In this document: positions 23,501 through 33,775 of the stretch, one piece after another
Layout of the letters: every line of letters begins with the position of its first letter
How positions within the stretch are numbered: position 1 is the first letter of the stretch
Assembly (NCBI GenBank): GCA_024643655.1
Contig: JAHEMM010000012.1
Span: 1 to 49,940, forward strand
Length of the DNA stretch: 49,940 bases
Reading direction: 5' to 3'
Origin: Chitinophagaceae bacterium
Lineage (GTDB): Bacteria; Bacteroidota; Bacteroidia; Chitinophagales; Chitinophagaceae
The notes under the pieces: model-generated
What the model was told of the DNA's origin: nothing
Seen by the model: only the letters and a program-made list of their open reading frames with translations
Database searches by the model: none
Position numbers and translations under genes: made by a program

Positions 23501-26068
23501 TTAAAATCTCCAACCTAATCCTACGGTTCCTAATCTATCTTCGGTAGAAACGCCATAACCAACAGTTAGCATAATTCTACGTAATGGAGAGAACCATAAC
23601 CCTCCGCCATAACCACTTAACAATTTATCTTGCGTATCATTTTTAACCCACACTCTTCCCATATCGTAAAATGCATAAATACCAAATGCACCCGGGAAAA
23701 GGTAGGTTCTGAAATCTGCAATTTTCCACCTAAGTTCAGCCTGGTTATAAAATTTGCTTTTGCCTGCAAATCTATTTCGACGATAGCCTCTTAGATTATC
23801 TTCATTGCCCAGATACTGTGCCTGATGAAATTCGAAACCTTTATCTCCGAGATTAATACCGCCTCCAATTCTGTTTGAAAATATTAATTTTTGTGGAACA
23901 AGCGTAACATGAAATGCAAAGTCTGAATTCAATTGTGTTAAACTATATGGAGTATTGCCGGTTCCAGATAAGTGACGGGCAGTTGTTTTCCAACTAACCC
24001 CTTTGTTTGGAATAACTTTATTATCTCTTGTATCTAAATCTACAATTACAGTTCCCCCAAAATAAGTTTGTAATTCATTCAACGTGGCGGCATCTAACCC
24101 ATTCAAACCTGGCCCTGTTCCAGTTAAAGAAATAAACCGAGCCATATTCAACTTGTCTTCAGAATGGAAATTAAATCGCTGAAAAGTTGGACCAAATGAA
24201 ATAGAGAACTTTGGAGAAAGCCTTTCTCTAATCAGAATTGTAGCGTCTGCAAGATTATATCTTGCACGATAATATCTGAATTGCCCTGGTTTTGTTTTAT
24301 CATATACTGAATTTACACCATAACCAAAAAAATTACTTGTATTATTAGGTGCTTTAACACTTATATCTGTAGTTAAATCTGCATTTTTACCAAGGATACC
24401 AATAAACTCATTAGAAAAACCAAAATCCCAGGCTTTTGTCGATAATGAATGTTTTACAGAAAATGCATAAGATGCCTGATATGGATCTTTTCTAAAGCTA
24501 TGAGTAATTATTTTATAGGTAAGTCCTAGAAGAACTCCATCATCAGGATTAAAGCCAAACGCAGCACCAGGAGTTGACTTTTCATATTGATAATATATTC
24601 TTTCAAATTTATTTACATCACTATCATTTGATAAATGGTTTTTAAATTTCCCTATTATTTTATTTTCTCCGTTATCTTTATCATACACAAAAGAGCTTCC
24701 TTGCCCTTTTGAAGTTTTTTCAAAAATATCAGCTCCGCCTCCACCAATCATTCTTATTTTAACTTTATCATTGTTGCCATGTATTACAAATTTATCATCG
24801 CCATCAAAACCGAATAATCGAACTTCCTTTGTTTCACCCCCGATAAAAAGGCGTTCATATTTTTTATCTGCCTTCTCACCATTTTTATTGATTTTATAAA
24901 CTTGTACCAGCATAGATCCATCATCATTCCTTGTAACCTCAAAAAAGTCTTTTTTATCGCTTGCAGTTACAGTAACTTTTTTTGCTAAAAAGTGATAATA
25001 CCTCATAACATCTTCTGCCAAATATTTTCGTCTTTCCTTTAATATATTTATTATTTTTTGGTTATGAGGCAGTGCTCTTATTTCTGCCGGTTGCATAGCT
25101 AAGGCATTTTCAATAACCTGATCGGTCATTTTTGGAATAAATTCATCAACTGTCTTTTGCCAATCTGCTTCAGTGAGTTGATTTAAAAAGAACCTGTCGA
25201 AATTGCGGGCTGCAAAATTGAATCGACGTATATCATGTGCTTTTGGTTTAAACCCTTCTAATTGCGGCACATATGCTTTTCTTCTTGCTATACCTGGAAT
25301 TAAGCCCTGATTAATATAAAATGCCTGATCCCGGTCTTTTGGAATCGGGAAAAAAGTTTTACCTCCATTATTATTATCATTTGCACCCCAATTCCATTGT
25401 CCTTCATGTCTATCAAGATCCATTACGAACATATCCAGAATCCTGGCTGTCAAAACTGCTTTTTGATCAGCCTGGTTATCGTTGTCTTTTTCCATCTTTT
25501 CAGCTACTTCATCCGTATCATATCCTTTACTTACATTTTCAGGAAATCTTTCTTCAAAAGTTGCCAGCATACCTCCAAAATCCTTGCGAAACTCTCCTAA
25601 AGCAGGATCATCGGGAACATAAATAAGTCTTACTTTTCCATAAGGCACTCCAACCGCATCAGCCAACGGCTGCATAGATAAAGAGGCATAAGGATAAGAA
25701 GCAGATACACCATCAGAAACTAGATCTGCGGCTGCTTCACTTTGTAAATCGCCAGGCAGTGTTTTATCAGTGATAAATTTTTGAATAGAACGAATAATGA
25801 ATTGTCTGCCATTGGCATCTTCTACTCGCAATGATTTTGTTTGCTTACCACCTCCTTTCTTAATTGGTGTCAGACCCGTAAGTTTTAATACCGGCACTTT
25901 GACAGGTGTATTCCACTCCGTACGATAATTGGCCCCCATCCAGAACTTTTTTGCTCCGCTAGTGTTAAAATGTGAACCGGGTGCAGTAGCAGTTTCATTG
26001 CCAGGTTGGGCATTTGAAGAAAGGCAGGATATTAATAAAAAGGAAATAGTTAATACTAACAGTCTCAT
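23501..26068 (-). CDS. Surface protein: kinase-like domain, RTX-like segment and Omp85-type C-terminal barrel
   Basis: An 855-residue exported protein with a signal peptide (residues 1-20). Residues about 38-400 form a domain shared with the 26515 gene. It contains QFIIRSIQK (R93, K97), then VMDLDRHEGQW (D217-D219-R220-H221...Q224) and PIPKDRDQAF (D245, D247). That spacing resembles the beta3 Lys, catalytic loop and metal-binding Asp of PI4K-II/FAM20/HipA-like kinases. Next comes LFGFDGDDKFVIHG and MIGGGGADIF, like calcium-binding RTX turns. From about residue 500 the sequence is a beta-barrel with the Omp85 loop motif NLRGYRRNRF and a terminal GLGWRF. Annotation pipelines usually call such proteins BamA/TamA family. 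No POTRA domains are evident. The kinase-like reading is inference. Confidence 0.75.
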   Translation of the reverse strand: MRLLVLTISFLLISCLSSNAQPGNETATAPGSHFNTSGAKKFWMGANYRTEWNTPVKVPVLKLTGLTPIKKGGGKQTKSLRVEDANGRQFIIRSIQKFITDKTLPGDLQSEAAADLVSDGVSASYPYASLSMQPLADAVGVPYGKVRLIYVPDDPALGEFRKDFGGMLATFEERFPENVSKGYDTDEVAEKMEKDNDNQADQKAVLTARILDMFVMDLDRHEGQWNWGANDNNNGGKTFFPIPKDRDQAFYINQGLIPGIARRKAYVPQLEGFKPKAHDIRRFNFAARNFDRFFLNQLTEADWQKTVDEFIPKMTDQVIENALAMQPAEIRALPHNQKIINILKERRKYLAEDVMRYYHFLAKKVTVTASDKKDFFEVTRNDDGSMLVQVYKINKNGEKADKKYERLFIGGETKEVRLFGFDGDDKFVIHGNNDKVKIRMIGGGGADIFEKTSKGQGSSFVYDKDNGENKIIGKFKNHLSNDSDVNKFERIYYQYEKSTPGAAFGFNPDDGVLLGLTYKIITHSFRKDPYQASYAFSVKHSLSTKAWDFGFSNEFIGILGKNADLTTDISVKAPNNTSNFFGYGVNSVYDKTKPGQFRYYRARYNLADATILIRERLSPKFSISFGPTFQRFNFHSEDKLNMARFISLTGTGPGLNGLDAATLNELQTYFGGTVIVDLDTRDNKVIPNKGVSWKTTARHLSGTGNTPYSLTQLNSDFAFHVTLVPQKLIFSNRIGGGINLGDKGFEFHQAQYLGNEDNLRGYRRNRFAGKSKFYNQAELRWKIADFRTYLFPGAFGIYAFYDMGRVWVKNDTQDKLLSGYGGGLWFSPLRRIMLTVGYGVSTEDRLGTVGLGWRF

Positions 26069-26514
26069 GGTTGATAGTTTTGGTTGATAATGCTTTTTGT
26101 TTTGGTTTTATGATCCGAAAAGATACGATTTTTTGAAAAAAGCCTAAAATAAATGAAAAAAGAACAAGATTAATTTAGGATTGTGATGTGCTTTAGAAAT
26201 ATTTATTGTTTAAGTTAAGGGATAAATTCTAGATTTTCCTATTTCTGAACTTCAATTGATGTAAAAAATGTAATTATTTTATTACTGAATCCAACACAAA
26301 AACCACAAACTACTTTTAACATTAATGAAGCCTGATTTTTATTTTTTCAATTGGCATGCTATTTCGGGACAACTTTTTTGTAAATTAGTGGCTTTAAGGG
26401 TGTTGGCGATGTATAATAGTTAACAAGCTTCAATAATGCTCCAAACGTTTTCATGTTGCTTACTTATTTAGCTTAAAGAATTTAATCGACCTTCTTAATT
26501 TTTTAGTTTTTGTG
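26069..26514. other. Intergenic region between divergent paralogues
   Basis: 446 bp of AT-rich DNA with no supported gene. On the minus strand TATCTTTT (26118-26125) is a near-match -7 box for the 855-residue protein, about 50 bp before its start. Two GGTTGATA direct repeats (26069-26076 and 26082-26089) sit next to that start codon. On the plus strand I find no convincing promoter box for the 26515 gene. I see no RNA structure or known riboswitch. Confidence 0.4.
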
Positions 26515-29500
26515 ATGAAAAAATATTTTGCTTTGCTAGGTTGTTTGATAGTTGCGAGTACAACCCTCAAAGCTCAAACGGATACAATTGCCAGACGGAT
26601 AGTCCTTATTGGAGATGCAGGTCAACTTACAGATGGGCGACATCCTGTTGTTGATGCTGTAAGAAACAATATCCCACTCGACAAAAAAACTACAGTATTA
26701 TTTCTAGGAGACAATTTATATAAACATGGATTACCAGATGTAGAAACAGCTGGTTATGAAGAATCAAGAGCTATTCTAGATTCCCAATTAGCAATTGGCA
26801 GAAACACAAAGGCAAAAATATATATGATTCCCGGGAACCATGATTGGCATAATGGCAACCGTGATGGCTATGATGCAATTATTCGACAACAACTATATGT
26901 CACATTCCCAAAAATAGATAGTGTTGATGCTGAGTTTTTTCCCGAAGATGGATGTCCTGGTCCTAAAGAAATTAATCTAGGTAATAATATTTTATTAGTA
27001 ATTTTTGACAGTCAGTGGTGGCTTCACCCATATGACAAACCAGGGATTGAATCAGATTGTGATTGTAAAACTGAAATAGAGTTAGTGTCTAAGATCAGAG
27101 ACATCGCAACACAAAACACCGACAAACTTATTGTAGTTGCCAGCCATCATCCTTTTAAAAGCAATGGAGTGCATGGAGGATTCTTTACATTAAAACAACA
27201 TATATTTCCTTTTACCGACATAAAAAAAAGTCTTTTCTTACCATTGCCTGTTTTAGGCTCTATCTATGTTATTGCCCGAAGTGTATTTGGAGCATCACAG
27301 GATCTTAAACACCCTGCCTATGCTAACATGATCAATCAAATTACTGGTGCTTTGGAAACTTCTTTAGCACCAAATGTTGTTTTTGTATCGGGCCATGAAC
27401 ATAATTTGCAGCATATTAAAGATGATAATTTCAATTACATTGTAAGTGGTGGCGGTTGTAAACAAAGTAGAATTTCAAAACGAAATAATGGGCTTTTCAA
27501 TTCTACAGACTTTGGTTTTGCAGTACTTGAAGTTTCGACAAATAAAAATGTAAACCTTTCGATTTATACAGTTACTGATTCTGTTCGTAAAAAGTACAGC
27601 ACTTACTTATTAAATTATAAAAAAGCACTTGTAAAACCAATTGATTCTACGCTGACACCAATTACACTTGGAAATCAAGAATTAAAATTTGAAGACAAGG
27701 TGTCGAAACCTGCCAGCACAACCCTCCCGAAAATTAATGGTTTGAAAAAATTCTTTATGGGTCAAAACTATCGTAAAGAATGGTCAACTCCGGTAAACAT
27801 GAAAGTGCTGGATATGAAAACAGAAAAGGGGGGATTGAAAATTGTAAGTCTTGGAGGTGGTCAACAAACAAGATCTTTACGGCTAGAAGACAAAAGTGGA
27901 CGTGAGTGGGTATTAAGGGGTGTAAATAAAAACATCGGTAAAGCATTGCCACAAGAATTTCGTGGAACTGCTGCTGAAGACTTTGCTCCTGAATTAAATT
28001 CTGCTGCCCATCCGTATGGAGCTTTGGTAGTTCCAAACCTTGCGAAACCTTTACAGTTGCTAACTGCCAAACCCGAGCTTTTCTTTGTACCAGATGATCC
28101 AAATCTTGGTATTTATAGATTATTATTTGCCAATACTGTTTGCTTACTTGAAGAAAGAAATTTTGCATTATCTGATGATAAATCAAATTCAACCAACAAA
28201 ATTTTTACAAAAATTATTGACGACAATGATCATAGACCCGATCAACCAAAAGTTTTAACAGCAAGATTATTAGATATTTTGATTGGTGATTTTGATCGTC
28301 ATTTTGACCAATGGAGATGGGGTACAGGAGATACAGGAAAAGGGAAATTATACTATCCTATTCCAAGAGATAGAGATCAGGCCTTTTTTAATTCCGAAGG
28401 AAAGATTTTCAGAGCCGTAACTGGCAGAGAGCTGCCATTTCTAAAAGGATTTCGAAAGAACATACACTCTATAAACTGGCTTGGATATACAGCAAAGGAC
28501 TTCGATCGCTTTTTCCTATCCGGACTTTCTCTTTCAGAATGGAATAATTCAGTAAATAATTTCCAGCAACAACTACCCGATACAGCTATACGTAATGCAG
28601 TTCAAAAATTACCCCCTGAAATATTTGCCATAAATGGAGAAAAAATAATAAATAAGTTAATCAACCGGCGTAACCAGTTGAATAAAGAAGCCATTAAATA
28701 TTACAAATTCTTATCCCGGCAGGTAAATGTAGTAGGTAGTAACCAAAAAGAATATTTTAAAGTAAGCAATCATAGCGATGGCCTTCAGGTAAGAGTGTAT
28801 GAAAAAGGTAAAAATTACGATACCAGTTTTATTATGTACAACAGGGTTTTTGATCCGGCTGTTACAAAAGAAATTCGCTTATATGGATTAAATGGCGAAG
28901 ATGTTTTCGATATTGAAGAAGATGTGTCATCAAAGATTAAAATCAGGGTTATTGGGGGTAAGGATAATGATACATTTAATATCCGTGGAAATGTAAAAAG
29001 TATTATCTATGACAAGCTTTCCGACTTTAATGTAATCCTGAATAAAAGTCATACAAAAAATAAATTTTCAAACAATCCCCCATCGAGTGCCAGAAGTATT
29101 TTAGGCTATCAGTATAATGCTACAAAATTTCCTCAGCTTTTATTTAGTTATAATTCTGATGATGGCTACATGGTGGGAGCTGGAATTTCTAGGACAACTT
29201 ATGGATTTATCAATTATCCATATGCCACACATCAGCAATTCTCAGCTTTATATGCTTTAAACAGGAAAGCTTTTCAAATAAAGTATAACGGAGTGTTTAA
29301 TCATATTACAAAAGACAAAGATCTAATTGTAAACGTCAACTATTTGTTACCAGCATTAAGAAACTTTACTGGTTTTGGAAATGAAACATTACTGACAGAT
29401 GGCAGGGACTTTGATTTCTATAGAAGCCGATATAAATCATTTGAAGCAGAAGTGTTGATTCGTAAAAGAATATTTGAGCGGTTAGAATTAATGGTTGGCC

Positions 29501-30186
29501 CTTACTATAACCGCTATTGGAATGATATAAAAGACAATGCAAAAAATGTTTTAAGTAATCCACGACAAGTAGGACTTGATTCTGCAGATGTGTACAGTAC
29601 TAAATCGTATTTGGGTGGTAAATTTGTAATGCAGTTTGATAATCGTAATAATAAATTATTTCCAACCCGAGGTATATTCTGGAAAAATGAATTTGTAGCA
29701 ACGGCTGGCAATGGATTTAACACAAGCAACTTTGTAAAGTACACCACAGATATGTCGATCTATGCAAGCTTTACAGATCCTGCAAAAATGGTCATCGCTT
29801 TGGGCTTTGGCGGAGGTAAAATACTCTCTAAAAACTTTGAATACTTCCAGGCGCTTTCGTTGGGAGTTGACAACTACAATATTCATGGATTTAGAAAAAA
29901 CAGATACTCCGGCTCCTCATTAATTTATGGTAGCATAGAAATGAAGGTTCAGCTTTTTAACTTCAATACCTACATTGCACCTGGCCCTGTAGGTCTTACT
30001 GCATTTTATGATATTGGACGGGTATGGATGAGAGGTGAAAACTCCAGAAAATGGCATGGTGCCTATGGCGGTGGACTTTATTTTATTCCATTCAACAACT
30101 TCCTTATTTCTGCAACAGCAGGTTTTTCAGGAAATGAAAGACTGTTGAATTTTAATCTTGGCACGAAGATCAATCTTACTTTTTGA
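26515..30186 (+). CDS. Metallophosphoesterase fused to kinase-like domain, RTX-like segment and Omp85-type barrel
   Basis: A 1223-residue exported protein (signal peptide 1-20; an adjacent GTG at 26512 is also in frame). Residues about 28-345 are a calcineurin-like phosphoesterase: IGDAG (D34), LGDN (D66), GNHD (N108, H109), SHHP (H211, H212), GHEH (H294, H296). Residues about 408-780 repeat the domain of the 23501 gene: WVLRGVNK (R468, K472), IGDFDRHFDQW (D592, D594, R595, H596, Q599), PIPRDRDQAF (D619, D621). RTX-like turns follow (LYGLNGEDVFDI, VIGGKDNDTFNI; about 785-825), then a barrel (about 860-1223). The loop motif is IHGFRKNRY where the paralogue has LRGYRRNRF. This predicts a cell-surface or periplasmic phosphatase anchored by the barrel. 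The PAP2 gene follows after 11 bp. Confidence 0.8.
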   Translation: MKKYFALLGCLIVASTTLKAQTDTIARRIVLIGDAGQLTDGRHPVVDAVRNNIPLDKKTTVLFLGDNLYKHGLPDVETAGYEESRAILDSQLAIGRNTKAKIYMIPGNHDWHNGNRDGYDAIIRQQLYVTFPKIDSVDAEFFPEDGCPGPKEINLGNNILLVIFDSQWWLHPYDKPGIESDCDCKTEIELVSKIRDIATQNTDKLIVVASHHPFKSNGVHGGFFTLKQHIFPFTDIKKSLFLPLPVLGSIYVIARSVFGASQDLKHPAYANMINQITGALETSLAPNVVFVSGHEHNLQHIKDDNFNYIVSGGGCKQSRISKRNNGLFNSTDFGFAVLEVSTNKNVNLSIYTVTDSVRKKYSTYLLNYKKALVKPIDSTLTPITLGNQELKFEDKVSKPASTTLPKINGLKKFFMGQNYRKEWSTPVNMKVLDMKTEKGGLKIVSLGGGQQTRSLRLEDKSGREWVLRGVNKNIGKALPQEFRGTAAEDFAPELNSAAHPYGALVVPNLAKPLQLLTAKPELFFVPDDPNLGIYRLLFANTVCLLEERNFALSDDKSNSTNKIFTKIIDDNDHRPDQPKVLTARLLDILIGDFDRHFDQWRWGTGDTGKGKLYYPIPRDRDQAFFNSEGKIFRAVTGRELPFLKGFRKNIHSINWLGYTAKDFDRFFLSGLSLSEWNNSVNNFQQQLPDTAIRNAVQKLPPEIFAINGEKIINKLINRRNQLNKEAIKYYKFLSRQVNVVGSNQKEYFKVSNHSDGLQVRVYEKGKNYDTSFIMYNRVFDPAVTKEIRLYGLNGEDVFDIEEDVSSKIKIRVIGGKDNDTFNIRGNVKSIIYDKLSDFNVILNKSHTKNKFSNNPPSSARSILGYQYNATKFPQLLFSYNSDDGYMVGAGISRTTYGFINYPYATHQQFSALYALNRKAFQIKYNGVFNHITKDKDLIVNVNYLLPALRNFTGFGNETLLTDGRDFDFYRSRYKSFEAEVLIRKRIFERLELMVGPYYNRYWNDIKDNAKNVLSNPRQVGLDSADVYSTKSYLGGKFVMQFDNRNNKLFPTRGIFWKNEFVATAGNGFNTSNFVKYTTDMSIYASFTDPAKMVIALGFGGGKILSKNFEYFQALSLGVDNYNIHGFRKNRYSGSSLIYGSIEMKVQLFNFNTYIAPGPVGLTAFYDIGRVWMRGENSRKWHGAYGGGLYFIPFNNFLISATAGFSGNERLLNFNLGTKINLTF

Positions 30187-30197
30187 TTTTATTCTTT

Positions 30198-30839
30198 ATG
30201 GAAAAGGCAAAAAATAAATTATTGATTACAAGAATTTATTTTGGCGCTACTTTTCTTTTATTCATAGTGTGGCTGGTATTTATCGAAAGGAATATATGGC
30301 TTGATGAAAAGATATCATCTCTTTTTTCATCAACAGAAACTGTTTTCGGTACAAGAATGATGAAAGCTATTACTTTTTTAGGCAATCACAACTTCTTAAT
30401 ACCAGCGAATCTTTTAATGATCGCAATCTTTCTGTATAAAAAAAATAAGACCGATGCGCTAAGAGTTTTATTTGTAGCTATTAGCAGTTTGGCTATAATG
30501 TCATTGCTTAAACGAATATTTCAAAGAATAAGACCTGATAACGCCATGGTACATGGCATTACAAACTTTAGCTTTCCAAGCGGTCATGCATTGATGAGTA
30601 TTACTTTTTTTGGTTTGCTGATCTGGTTTATAGTAAGAGATTGGAATTCGGGTTGGAAAAAGAAAATTTCCATCACTATTCTTGTTCTTCTTATTTTTTG
30701 GATAGGTATAAGTCGTATCTACCTGAGAGTACACTTTACAACAGATGTGATTGCTGGTTGGATAATTGGCATCTTATGGATGCTTATAGCACTTTCAATA
30801 TTCGCTACTATCAGCAATAAAAAAGCTAATTCTTATTGA
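30198..30839 (+). CDS. PAP2-family membrane phosphatase
   Basis: A 213-residue protein with about six membrane helices and the complete PAP2 triad: KRIFQRIRPDNAM (K-x6-RP), FPSGHALMS and SRIYLRVHFTTDV (SR-x5-H-x3-D). The ATG at 30198 is used; an in-frame TTG at 30183 overlaps the previous gene. The active site of such enzymes faces the periplasm and cleaves phosphate from lipid phosphates such as undecaprenyl diphosphate, phosphatidic acid or phosphatidylglycerol phosphate. It lies 11 bp after the metallophosphoesterase fusion, so the two are probably one operon, which suggests linked phosphate chemistry at the envelope. Its 3' end overlaps the convergent gene by 14 bp. Confidence 0.88.
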   Translation: MEKAKNKLLITRIYFGATFLLFIVWLVFIERNIWLDEKISSLFSSTETVFGTRMMKAITFLGNHNFLIPANLLMIAIFLYKKNKTDALRVLFVAISSLAIMSLLKRIFQRIRPDNAMVHGITNFSFPSGHALMSITFFGLLIWFIVRDWNSGWKKKISITILVLLIFWIGISRIYLRVHFTTDVIAGWIIGILWMLIALSIFATISNKKANSY

Positions 30840-32478: not shown

Positions 32479-32508
32479 TTTGTTTAAATTTATCAAAACT
32501 TATCTTTA
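32479..32508 (+). promoter_or_regulatory. Candidate promoter of the HD-PycTM gene
   Basis: TTTG (32479-32482), an 18-bp spacer and TATCTTTA (32501-32508) match the Bacteroidota promoter pattern except for the last base of the -7 box. The ATG follows 4 bp after the -7 box, so the mRNA would be leaderless or nearly so. Confidence 0.4.
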
Positions 32509-32512
32509 TAGC

Positions 32513-33775
32513 ATGACAGAAAATCAATTAACTATGATTCAAGAGGCGCAAGCCTTTGTTACTGACCTGCTTTCAAACAAACTTAGTAAAAATATCCGCT
32601 TTCATAATCTCGAACATACGGAAGAAGTTGTAGCTGCATGCGAAAAGCTGGCCGAGTTTTACCATTTAACTGATGAAGAACAACTCCCTTTATTCATTGC
32701 AGCCTGGTTTCATGATACGGGATATGTTGGAGGAAAGGCTAAAGACCATGAAGCCTTAAGTATACAACTTGCTACTGAATTTTTATCGGCACAAAATGCC
32801 CCTTTGGAACTATCTGGCAAAGTAGTAAACTGCATCTCGGCAACAAAGATGCCCCAATCGCCAAACAATTCACTTGAAAATATTCTTTGTGATGCCGATC
32901 TTTTTCATTTGGGCTCCGATACATTCAGAGAAAAAACAAAACTTTTACGCAAAGAGTTAAAGAATTTTGGAGAAAATTCTATTTCGAAAAATGACTGGCT
33001 CAAAACAAATATTGATTTCCTTGAAGCCCATAAATATTTTACAACATATGGTCAGGAAACCTTGCAACCGATTAAAGAAGTTCACATTAAAGCTTTAAAA
33101 GCTGAATTAAGCGAACTTGATGACCACACTAAAAAAAGTAAAAAATCAAAAAATACGGATGACATTATTGTAGAAGCGTTGAAGATTGAGGATGATAAGA
33201 AAAAGAAAAAAGAAAAAAATAACCAGTCAGAAAGAGGTATTGCTACTGTTTTTCGCATCATGGCGCAAAATCAAAACAATTTGAGCCAAATGGCCGACTC
33301 GAAAGCAAATATTTTAATTTCTGTAAATGCAATTATTCTAAGTATTGTCATTTCCTCGCTTATTACAAAACTGGATGCAAATCCAAATCTTCAGATACCA
33401 TTTATAATATTGGTAGTGATATGTGTATCTACTATTATTTTTTCAATTTTAGCCACTAGGCCTAATGTAAACCATGGCAAATTTACACAAGACGATATTC
33501 ATAATAAACGAACCAATCTTTTGTTTTTTGGCAACTTCTTTAAAATGAGTTTGCCTGATTATGATTGGGCTATGGGGGAAATGATGAACGATAAGGATTA
33601 TTTGTACAGCAGCATTGTTAAAGACACTTATTTTTTAGGTGTTGTACTTGCCAAAAAATATCGCTTATTAAGAATTGCCTATAACATTTTTATGTATGGG
33701 TTGATATTAGTAATTCTTGCATTTTTATTAGCAAATGCATTACCACATCCAATAGAAGTTTACACACCAGGTTAA
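32513..33775 (+). CDS. HD-domain protein fused to a Pycsar-effector-like (PycTM) membrane module
   Basis: A 420-residue protein starting at the ATG at 32513; the frame is open upstream but that would overlap the divergent promoter region. Residues about 10-180 are an HD phosphohydrolase domain: FHNLEHTEEV (H31, H35), AAWFHDTG (H67, D68), H79 and CDADLFHLG (D127 or D129). A Lys-rich linker follows (about 205-240). The C-terminal module (about 248-420) begins MAQNQNNLSQMADSKANIL, has two adjacent hydrophobic helices, a cytoplasmic segment and a final helix. This is the DUF5706/PycTM arrangement known from Pycsar anti-phage effectors that sense cCMP or cUMP. No nucleotidyl cyclase gene is in the window. 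The HD part could hydrolyse a nucleotide signal. A housekeeping role is equally possible. Confidence 0.82.
   Translation: MTENQLTMIQEAQAFVTDLLSNKLSKNIRFHNLEHTEEVVAACEKLAEFYHLTDEEQLPLFIAAWFHDTGYVGGKAKDHEALSIQLATEFLSAQNAPLELSGKVVNCISATKMPQSPNNSLENILCDADLFHLGSDTFREKTKLLRKELKNFGENSISKNDWLKTNIDFLEAHKYFTTYGQETLQPIKEVHIKALKAELSELDDHTKKSKKSKNTDDIIVEALKIEDDKKKKKEKNNQSERGIATVFRIMAQNQNNLSQMADSKANILISVNAIILSIVISSLITKLDANPNLQIPFIILVVICVSTIIFSILATRPNVNHGKFTQDDIHNKRTNLLFFGNFFKMSLPDYDWAMGEMMNDKDYLYSSIVKDTYFLGVVLAKKYRLLRIAYNIFMYGLILVILAFLLANALPHPIEVYTPG

Follow-up and report, generated by a model that had tools for sequence, protein, structure and literature searches.

Introduction

Proteins of the Omp85 'Metallo' subfamily join an Omp85 barrel to an N-terminal PF00149 domain, which is termed a metalloprotease in the article describing them (Heinz and Lithgow 2014, PMC4104836). 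This architecture is already known, and the word 'kinase' does not occur in the article's text. Here we describe two proteins, P1 and P2, encoded in a 49,940-nucleotide stretch from a Chitinophagaceae bacterium (assembly GCA_024643655.1, contig JAHEMM010000012.1, positions 1 to 49,940; hereafter the window). P2 has the 'Metallo' architecture, whereas P1-type members of the family have no PF00149 domain. Like P1 and P2, the PlpD-type patatin proteins carry an enzyme domain fused before an Omp85 barrel; PlpD differs in having a patatin lipase, a POTRA domain and a reported translocation across the outer membrane (PMC4104836).

We find that the domain ahead of the barrel in P1 and P2 has a predicted kinase fold, and this hints at what the middle part of 'Metallo' subfamily proteins may be. 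The nearest described folds are the CotH spore-coat kinases (PF08757; B. cereus CotH 5jd9), CtkA, the HipA/HipT kinases and the type II phosphatidylinositol 4-kinases (PI4K-II), which are eukaryotic cytosolic enzymes. In the open PMC literature, searched by titles and abstract openings (subscription journals and preprints lying outside it), we found no description of the P1/P2 domain as a kinase. Riemerella OMP76 is described as a TonB-dependent receptor (PMC10281475).

Results

The domain ahead of the barrel has a predicted kinase fold

P1 and P2 are divergently transcribed paralogues (36% identity over 828 aligned columns, E 8e-163) and hold the sole two domain matches that a whole-domain search found in the window's genome. 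Above the Pfam cut-offs, P1 matches a barrel alone, and P2 a barrel and a metallophosphatase. An earlier note on this DNA had claimed a shared kinase-like domain of about 370 residues ahead of the barrels. Modeling the P1 domain by AlphaFold2, we obtained a confident two-lobed kinase fold (predicted local distance difference test (pLDDT) 91.3; predicted template modeling score (pTM) 0.91), and the model matched kinase folds in Foldseek and VIA searches of PDB structures. The shared domain is present but smaller: its kinase-like part spans residues 38-365 (about 330), and a beta region then extends to about residue 490. The claimed order, kinase-like domain and then barrel, also stands, with the refinement that P2 carries a metallophosphatase at its N-terminus. 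The earlier note had said nothing of this metallophosphatase, of relatives without the motif or of neighboring genes. The P2 domain, 42% identical to that of P1, was assigned by alignment, the structure model being that of P1. On this model and alignment, the kinase-fold reading of both domains holds.

The motifs that had drawn attention lie where they were said to lie: FIIRSIQK (R93, K97) and DLDRHEGQW (D219) in P1, WVLRGVNK (R469, K473) and DFDRHFDQW (D595) in P2, then PIPKDRDQAF (D245, D247) and PIPRDRDQAF (D620, D622), respectively. The Asn-to-Gln change noticed in both copies falls exactly five residues after the catalytic Asp (+5), a position that is Asn in CotH and CtkA; in FAM20 kinases it is Glu. 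Scanning all six frames of the window with the combined pattern D.DRH..[QN]W...P.DRD, we found it in the P1 and P2 genes only, which argues that the motif pair is not due to chance.

A profile comparison with CotH exceeded its shuffles, and the catalytic and metal-site Asp were in register with those of CotH. At E ≤ 10, the Pfam models CotH (PF08757), HipA_C (PF07804), PI3_PI4_kinase (PF00454) and FAM20 gave no match in 36 family members, on which Pfam yielded 15 scattered weak families. A phmmer search of P1 against PDB sequences gave no match at E ≤ 1, and PI3_PI4_kinase was not found in 118 Bacteroidota genomes. The likeness to PI4K-II, CotH and HipA-like kinases proposed earlier is borne out for all of them at the level of fold; sequence profiles bear it out for CotH alone.

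The P1/P2 family differs from CotH in having Gln at +5, a DRH motif, and a fusion to an outer-membrane barrel and often to a phosphatase too. CtkA has Asn at +5 and, like HipA/HipT, no barrel. Identity to the type II phosphatidylinositol 4-kinases is 10%. The domain is best filed, from the model and the profile searches, as a new family of protein-kinase-like fold outside these four Pfam models.

Active-site residues are kept in most relatives and lost repeatedly

We aligned 36 domains (alignment A1), comprising P1, P2 and 34 of 37 loci gathered by whole-domain similarity without motif selection; three were left out, L035 because it was cut off and L001 and L002 because they come from the window itself. 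R93, K97, E172, D212, D217, H221, W227, D245 and D247 were invariant (36/36). D219 was present in 34 of the 36, with Gly in the other two, and R220 also in 34. D219 and D245 are the predicted catalytic and metal-binding Asp, at kinase spacing. R93 stands where the beta3 Lys is presumed to belong, and K97 follows four residues later. Position 224, the +5 residue, was Gln in 33 members and Asn in three, one of which (L010) was otherwise intact. The DRH and DRD residues, whose conservation the earlier note had made decisive, are therefore kept in most relatives. A further 80 named loci, the best 80 of at least 591 confirmed pattern matches, were kept out of these motif statistics because their scan selects on the DRH motif.

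In a second set, picked to take in weak matches, several of R93, K97, D219, H221, D245 and D247 were replaced in some members. Altogether, 46 of 61 distinct domains (P1 and P2 among them) were intact, and 15 lacked at least one of these six residues, D219 alone being missing in three. W227 was kept in 61/61 and W225 in 60/61. A tree of the domains, built by a quick search and poorly supported at its deep forks, required five changes between intact and non-intact (L168, L169, L170, L193 and L194, the same open reading frames (ORFs) as other loci, were left out). In tree pairings, D219/H221 and D219/D247 were never opposite, and D219/D245 were at times; sign tests for joint loss had four independent pairs, too few for significance. 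Most of the family keeps the active-site set, whereas side branches have repeatedly lost it, a pattern that resembles families with pseudokinases. Judged by their degenerate sites, L018, L019, L195 and part of L176-L187 are presumably pseudokinases; in the first three, the kinase Asp and the phosphatase motifs are both gone.

A phosphatase often accompanies the kinase fold

The metallophosphatase of P2, which we take to be of the purple-acid type, scored above the PF00149 cut-off (E 1e-6), and its metal-binding motifs are present. A long N-terminal region aligned with it in 54 of the 80 named loci. Among eight scanned long N-terminal regions without GNHD, Pfam Metallophos matched three, one above cut-off. 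Counted over six phosphatase residues, at least two were changed in 15 of the 54 fused loci, and one in four (L043, L045, L105 and L110, not scored degenerate). A histidine-phosphatase gene cluster lay 0-248 nt downstream in 5/80 loci, all within those 15. The five come from two families of bacteria and may represent two events. Separate phosphatase genes also adjoin the unfused kinase genes of L013 and L095 (both by Pfam) and of L015.

When 27 unselected fused proteins were judged by motif, both sites were present in 21, the kinase site only in three, neither in three and the phosphatase site only in none (L009, with a short N-terminus, was unjudged; L016, without one of five motif patterns, was scored intact). 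This site pattern fits a kinase/phosphatase unit.

An Omp85-type barrel would place the kinase fold in the periplasm

In the full P1 model (pLDDT 88.0, pTM 0.84), the barrel consists of 16 long strands, leaving aside two strands of 3 residues, and the model matched BamA and TamA at about 1e-9. Pfam assigned the barrels to ShlB in P1 and Omp85 in P2; with these Omp85/TpsB profiles in both proteins, and 16 strands and BamA/TamA matches in P1, they are the Omp85-type outer-membrane barrels they had been called. Ahead of the barrel, the P1 model contains the kinase fold and the beta region. Whole-protein Pfam scans of P1 and P2 gave no POTRA match, and no search used the pre-barrel region alone. 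We expect the kinase fold to face the periplasm, because the strand number is even, the domain is N-terminal, and Omp85 precedent, by POTRA topology and the barrel strand rule, places such domains there.

Of five barrel-less members examined, L013, L015, L196 and L197 have lipobox-like signal sequences, and L192 has a hydrophobic N-terminus, so membrane anchoring seems to be kept without the barrel. Barrel-less kinase-fold genes occur in clusters of two to three, partly divergent (L196, L197; G072:C27:62317-66892, G387:C1:4611761-4614604). P1 residues 12-15 (LISC) are also lipobox-like and are not clearly present in the close relatives L038 and L039. RTX-like GGxGxDxF turns are conserved across the family in the beta region.

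Reversible phosphorylation at the outer membrane is the probable function

From the computed fold, conservation, repeated site loss, barrel, fusion and neighbors, we infer catalysis, its reversibility, the periplasmic side, a substrate and a phosphate donor as follows. The domain would be a new atypical kinase fold, in shape between PI4K-II, CotH and CtkA/HipA, mounted on a 16-stranded Omp85/TamA-type barrel and often with a metallophosphatase in front. Its predicted active site comprises R93/K97, catalytic D219, H221, metal-site D245/D247 and mostly Gln at the second metal position 224. Working at the inner face of the outer membrane, it may use exported ATP or another donor to phosphorylate a protein or lipid of the periplasm or of that membrane, and the fused or neighboring phosphatase would take the phosphate off. 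We consider it probable, though well short of certain, that a family across Bacteroidota bears this kinase fold on the periplasmic end of the barrel and serves reversible phosphorylation.

Several observations weigh against this interpretation. TM-scores against single kinases were low (0.14-0.36 by query length, among the 50 Foldseek matches listed), and VIA rmsd (root-mean-square deviation) values were 3.6-5.4 Å. The hhalign probability of the CotH match was 17.5%, and the HipA profile comparison (19.1) stayed below the shuffle maximum (20.3). CtkA was not significant in a PDB profile search (E 0.12), where an unrelated protein ranked above it (0.062) and HDAC6 matched the same motif region (0.24); this match is thus a lead and not evidence. 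No Pfam kinase family matched any of the 36 members at E ≤ 10. With Arg in place of the presumed beta3 Lys and Gln at +5, the domain could have weak or altered activity. The periplasm is not known to have an ATP pool. Another Omp85 protein, PlpD, reportedly exports its passenger domain (PMC4104836).

Some of these points would suit a kinase fold that performs no phosphotransfer, serving the barrel and phosphatase instead as a sensor that binds nucleotides or as a scaffold, either repurposed or pseudo-enzymatic. The Arg and Gln of P1 and P2 and the lack of a known ATP pool agree with it, as do the 15 non-intact members of 61, most still long enough for a barrel. However, R93, K97, H221, D245 and D247 are invariant and D219 nearly so in members taken without motif selection; exactly the catalytic positions are conserved and elsewhere repeatedly lost, as is typical of an active site; and no unselected fused protein keeps the phosphatase site only. 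We regard this explanation as unlikely, while giving it real weight.

The domain might instead transfer another group, by AMPylation (SelO-like) or glutamylation (SidJ-like), or use a non-ATP donor. Its altered beta3 and +5 residues and extracytoplasmic location would accord with this, and a PPK1 (polyphosphate kinase) cluster, named through one representative, lies near 12/80 named loci. But the PPK1 link covers only part of the family, PPK1 is not among the window genes scanned, and we hold such a transfer to be improbable. The empty Pfam kinase result would agree with motifs that arose by chance in an ordinary accessory domain of Omp85 proteins (POTRA-like), but this reading is hardly credible, being already contradicted by the confident kinase-fold model and its PDB matches, besides the CotH profile score above shuffles and the conservation.

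If active in reversible phosphorylation, these proteins would form a widespread bacterial kinase family outside the cytosol, phosphatase-coupled and with an outer-membrane anchor. One could then test whether envelope proteins or lipids of Bacteroidota are phosphorylated without cytosolic ATP, and how; natural relatives that have lost the site offer ready comparisons.

Layout of the locus

The features are collected in Table 1. The P2 length is counted from a GTG at 26512; an in-frame ATG lies at 26515. We take RGY to be an Omp85 motif.

Table 1. Features of the P1/P2 locus, in window coordinates
Feature	Position	Strand	Description or basis
P1 gene, 855 aa	23501..26068	-	Signal peptide, kinase-fold domain, beta region, 16-stranded Omp85-type barrel
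P1 kinase-fold domain, residues 38-365 (predicted)	24974..25957	-	AlphaFold2 model, Foldseek, VIA
P1 R93-K97, invariant R and K closing beta3-like strand	25778..25792	-	Alignment A1; model strand P1 89-94
P1 catalytic loop D217-W227 (DLDRHEGQWNW), predicted catalytic Asp D219, Q224 at +5	25388..25420	-	
P1 P241-F250 (PIPKDRDQAF), predicted metal-binding Asp D245, equivalent of CotH IPWDYD	25319..25348	-	
P1 beta region, residues 366-490, RTX-like GGGGADIF turn, joins kinase fold to barrel	24599..24973	-	DSSP of model and sequence
P1 barrel, 16 long predicted strands, Omp85-like RGY in loop of strands 11/12	23516..24580	-	
P2 gene, 1224 aa	26512..30186	+	Signal peptide, metallophosphatase, kinase-fold domain, beta region, Omp85 barrel
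P2 calcineurin-like metallophosphatase, GDAG, GDNLY, GNHD, HHP, GHEH motifs	26581..27621	+	Pfam PF00149 E 1e-6
P2 kinase-fold domain, about residues 409-738 (predicted)	27736..28725	+	Placed by alignment to P1
P2 catalytic loop D593-W603 (DFDRHFDQWRW), D595 counterpart of D219	28288..28320	+	
P2 PIPRDRDQAF (D620, D622)	28357..28386	+	
P2 Omp85 barrel, approximate	29119..30183	+	Pfam Omp85 4.9e-11
PAP2-type phosphatase ORF, predicted start, 4-base overlap with P2 3' end	30183..30839	+	Pfam PAP2 1.2e-24
HD-PycTM gene	32480..33775	+	PycTM 5.6e-35; HD 0.0015, below its cut-off

Distribution of relatives

Whole-domain searches found the domain in 140/395 genomes of the phylum and in 7/19 close relatives, and a profile search found it in 42/118 genomes, the window's genome being counted each time. 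Scanning named genomes, we confirmed at least 591 of at least 595 pattern matches. By their genome titles, the 80 named loci are all from organisms that we take to be Bacteroidota. Alignments A2 and A3 hold 62 and 53 of the 80, respectively, L056 (stop), L108 (cut off) and others (for size) having been left out. Eight stretches of viral contigs had a pattern match, none encoding a relative. Five of 72,556 plasmid records carry the domain, as a hypothetical protein or unannotated.

Gene neighbors

Neighbors were clustered by single linkage at E < 1e-15 and named by one or few annotated representatives; one cluster (27/80 loci) mixes two protein kinds via a long L043 ORF. HD-PycTM genes, whose products join an HD phosphohydrolase to the membrane domain of a Pycsar effector (PycTM), lay in the flanking DNA retrieved (up to 8 kb) at 40/80 named loci. 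Across 18 aligned members, each HD-motif residue was either invariant or conserved in at least 90%. In the 118 genomes, taken without motif selection, an HD or PycTM match (half-length included) lay within 5 kb in 25 of the 42 kinase-fold genomes, and 14 of the 42 had none within 15 kb. Full-length HD-PycTM protein occurred in 24 genomes, 23 of which have the kinase fold (Fisher p 5e-12, uncorrected for relatedness).

These neighbors may act with the kinase-barrel protein. A fuller scheme, which we judge decidedly unlikely as a whole, would make an outer-membrane switch in much of the phylum from kinase and phosphatase on a single barrel protein, an unconventional donor (exported nucleotide or polyphosphate) and the inner-membrane HD-PycTM protein encoded nearby, with which the barrel protein would communicate; its targets would be periplasmic or outer-membrane molecules, in a compartment lacking ATP. 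A nucleotide-cyclase cluster lies near 12/80 named loci, and the best PADLOC match of the membrane nucleotide cyclase at L076:10478-11806 is PycC. With a PycC-like cyclase beside the kinase-barrel module, a Pycsar-like cyclase/PycTM pair may have a role other than phage defense here.

One same-strand array (L052:359-10454, Mucilaginibacter) encodes HD-PycTM, PPK1, SdiA-regulated, PAP2, a 782-aa protein and the kinase-barrel protein, named via cluster representatives. A recurrent neighbor of 774-822 aa (L051:5457-7805, L038:10601-12991 and relatives) matched nothing in Pfam (L038, L051) or in NCBIfam (L051). PADLOC also gave a weak match of P1 162-352 and P2 560-601 to the phage-defense candidate PDC-M03A (E 0.003-0.004).

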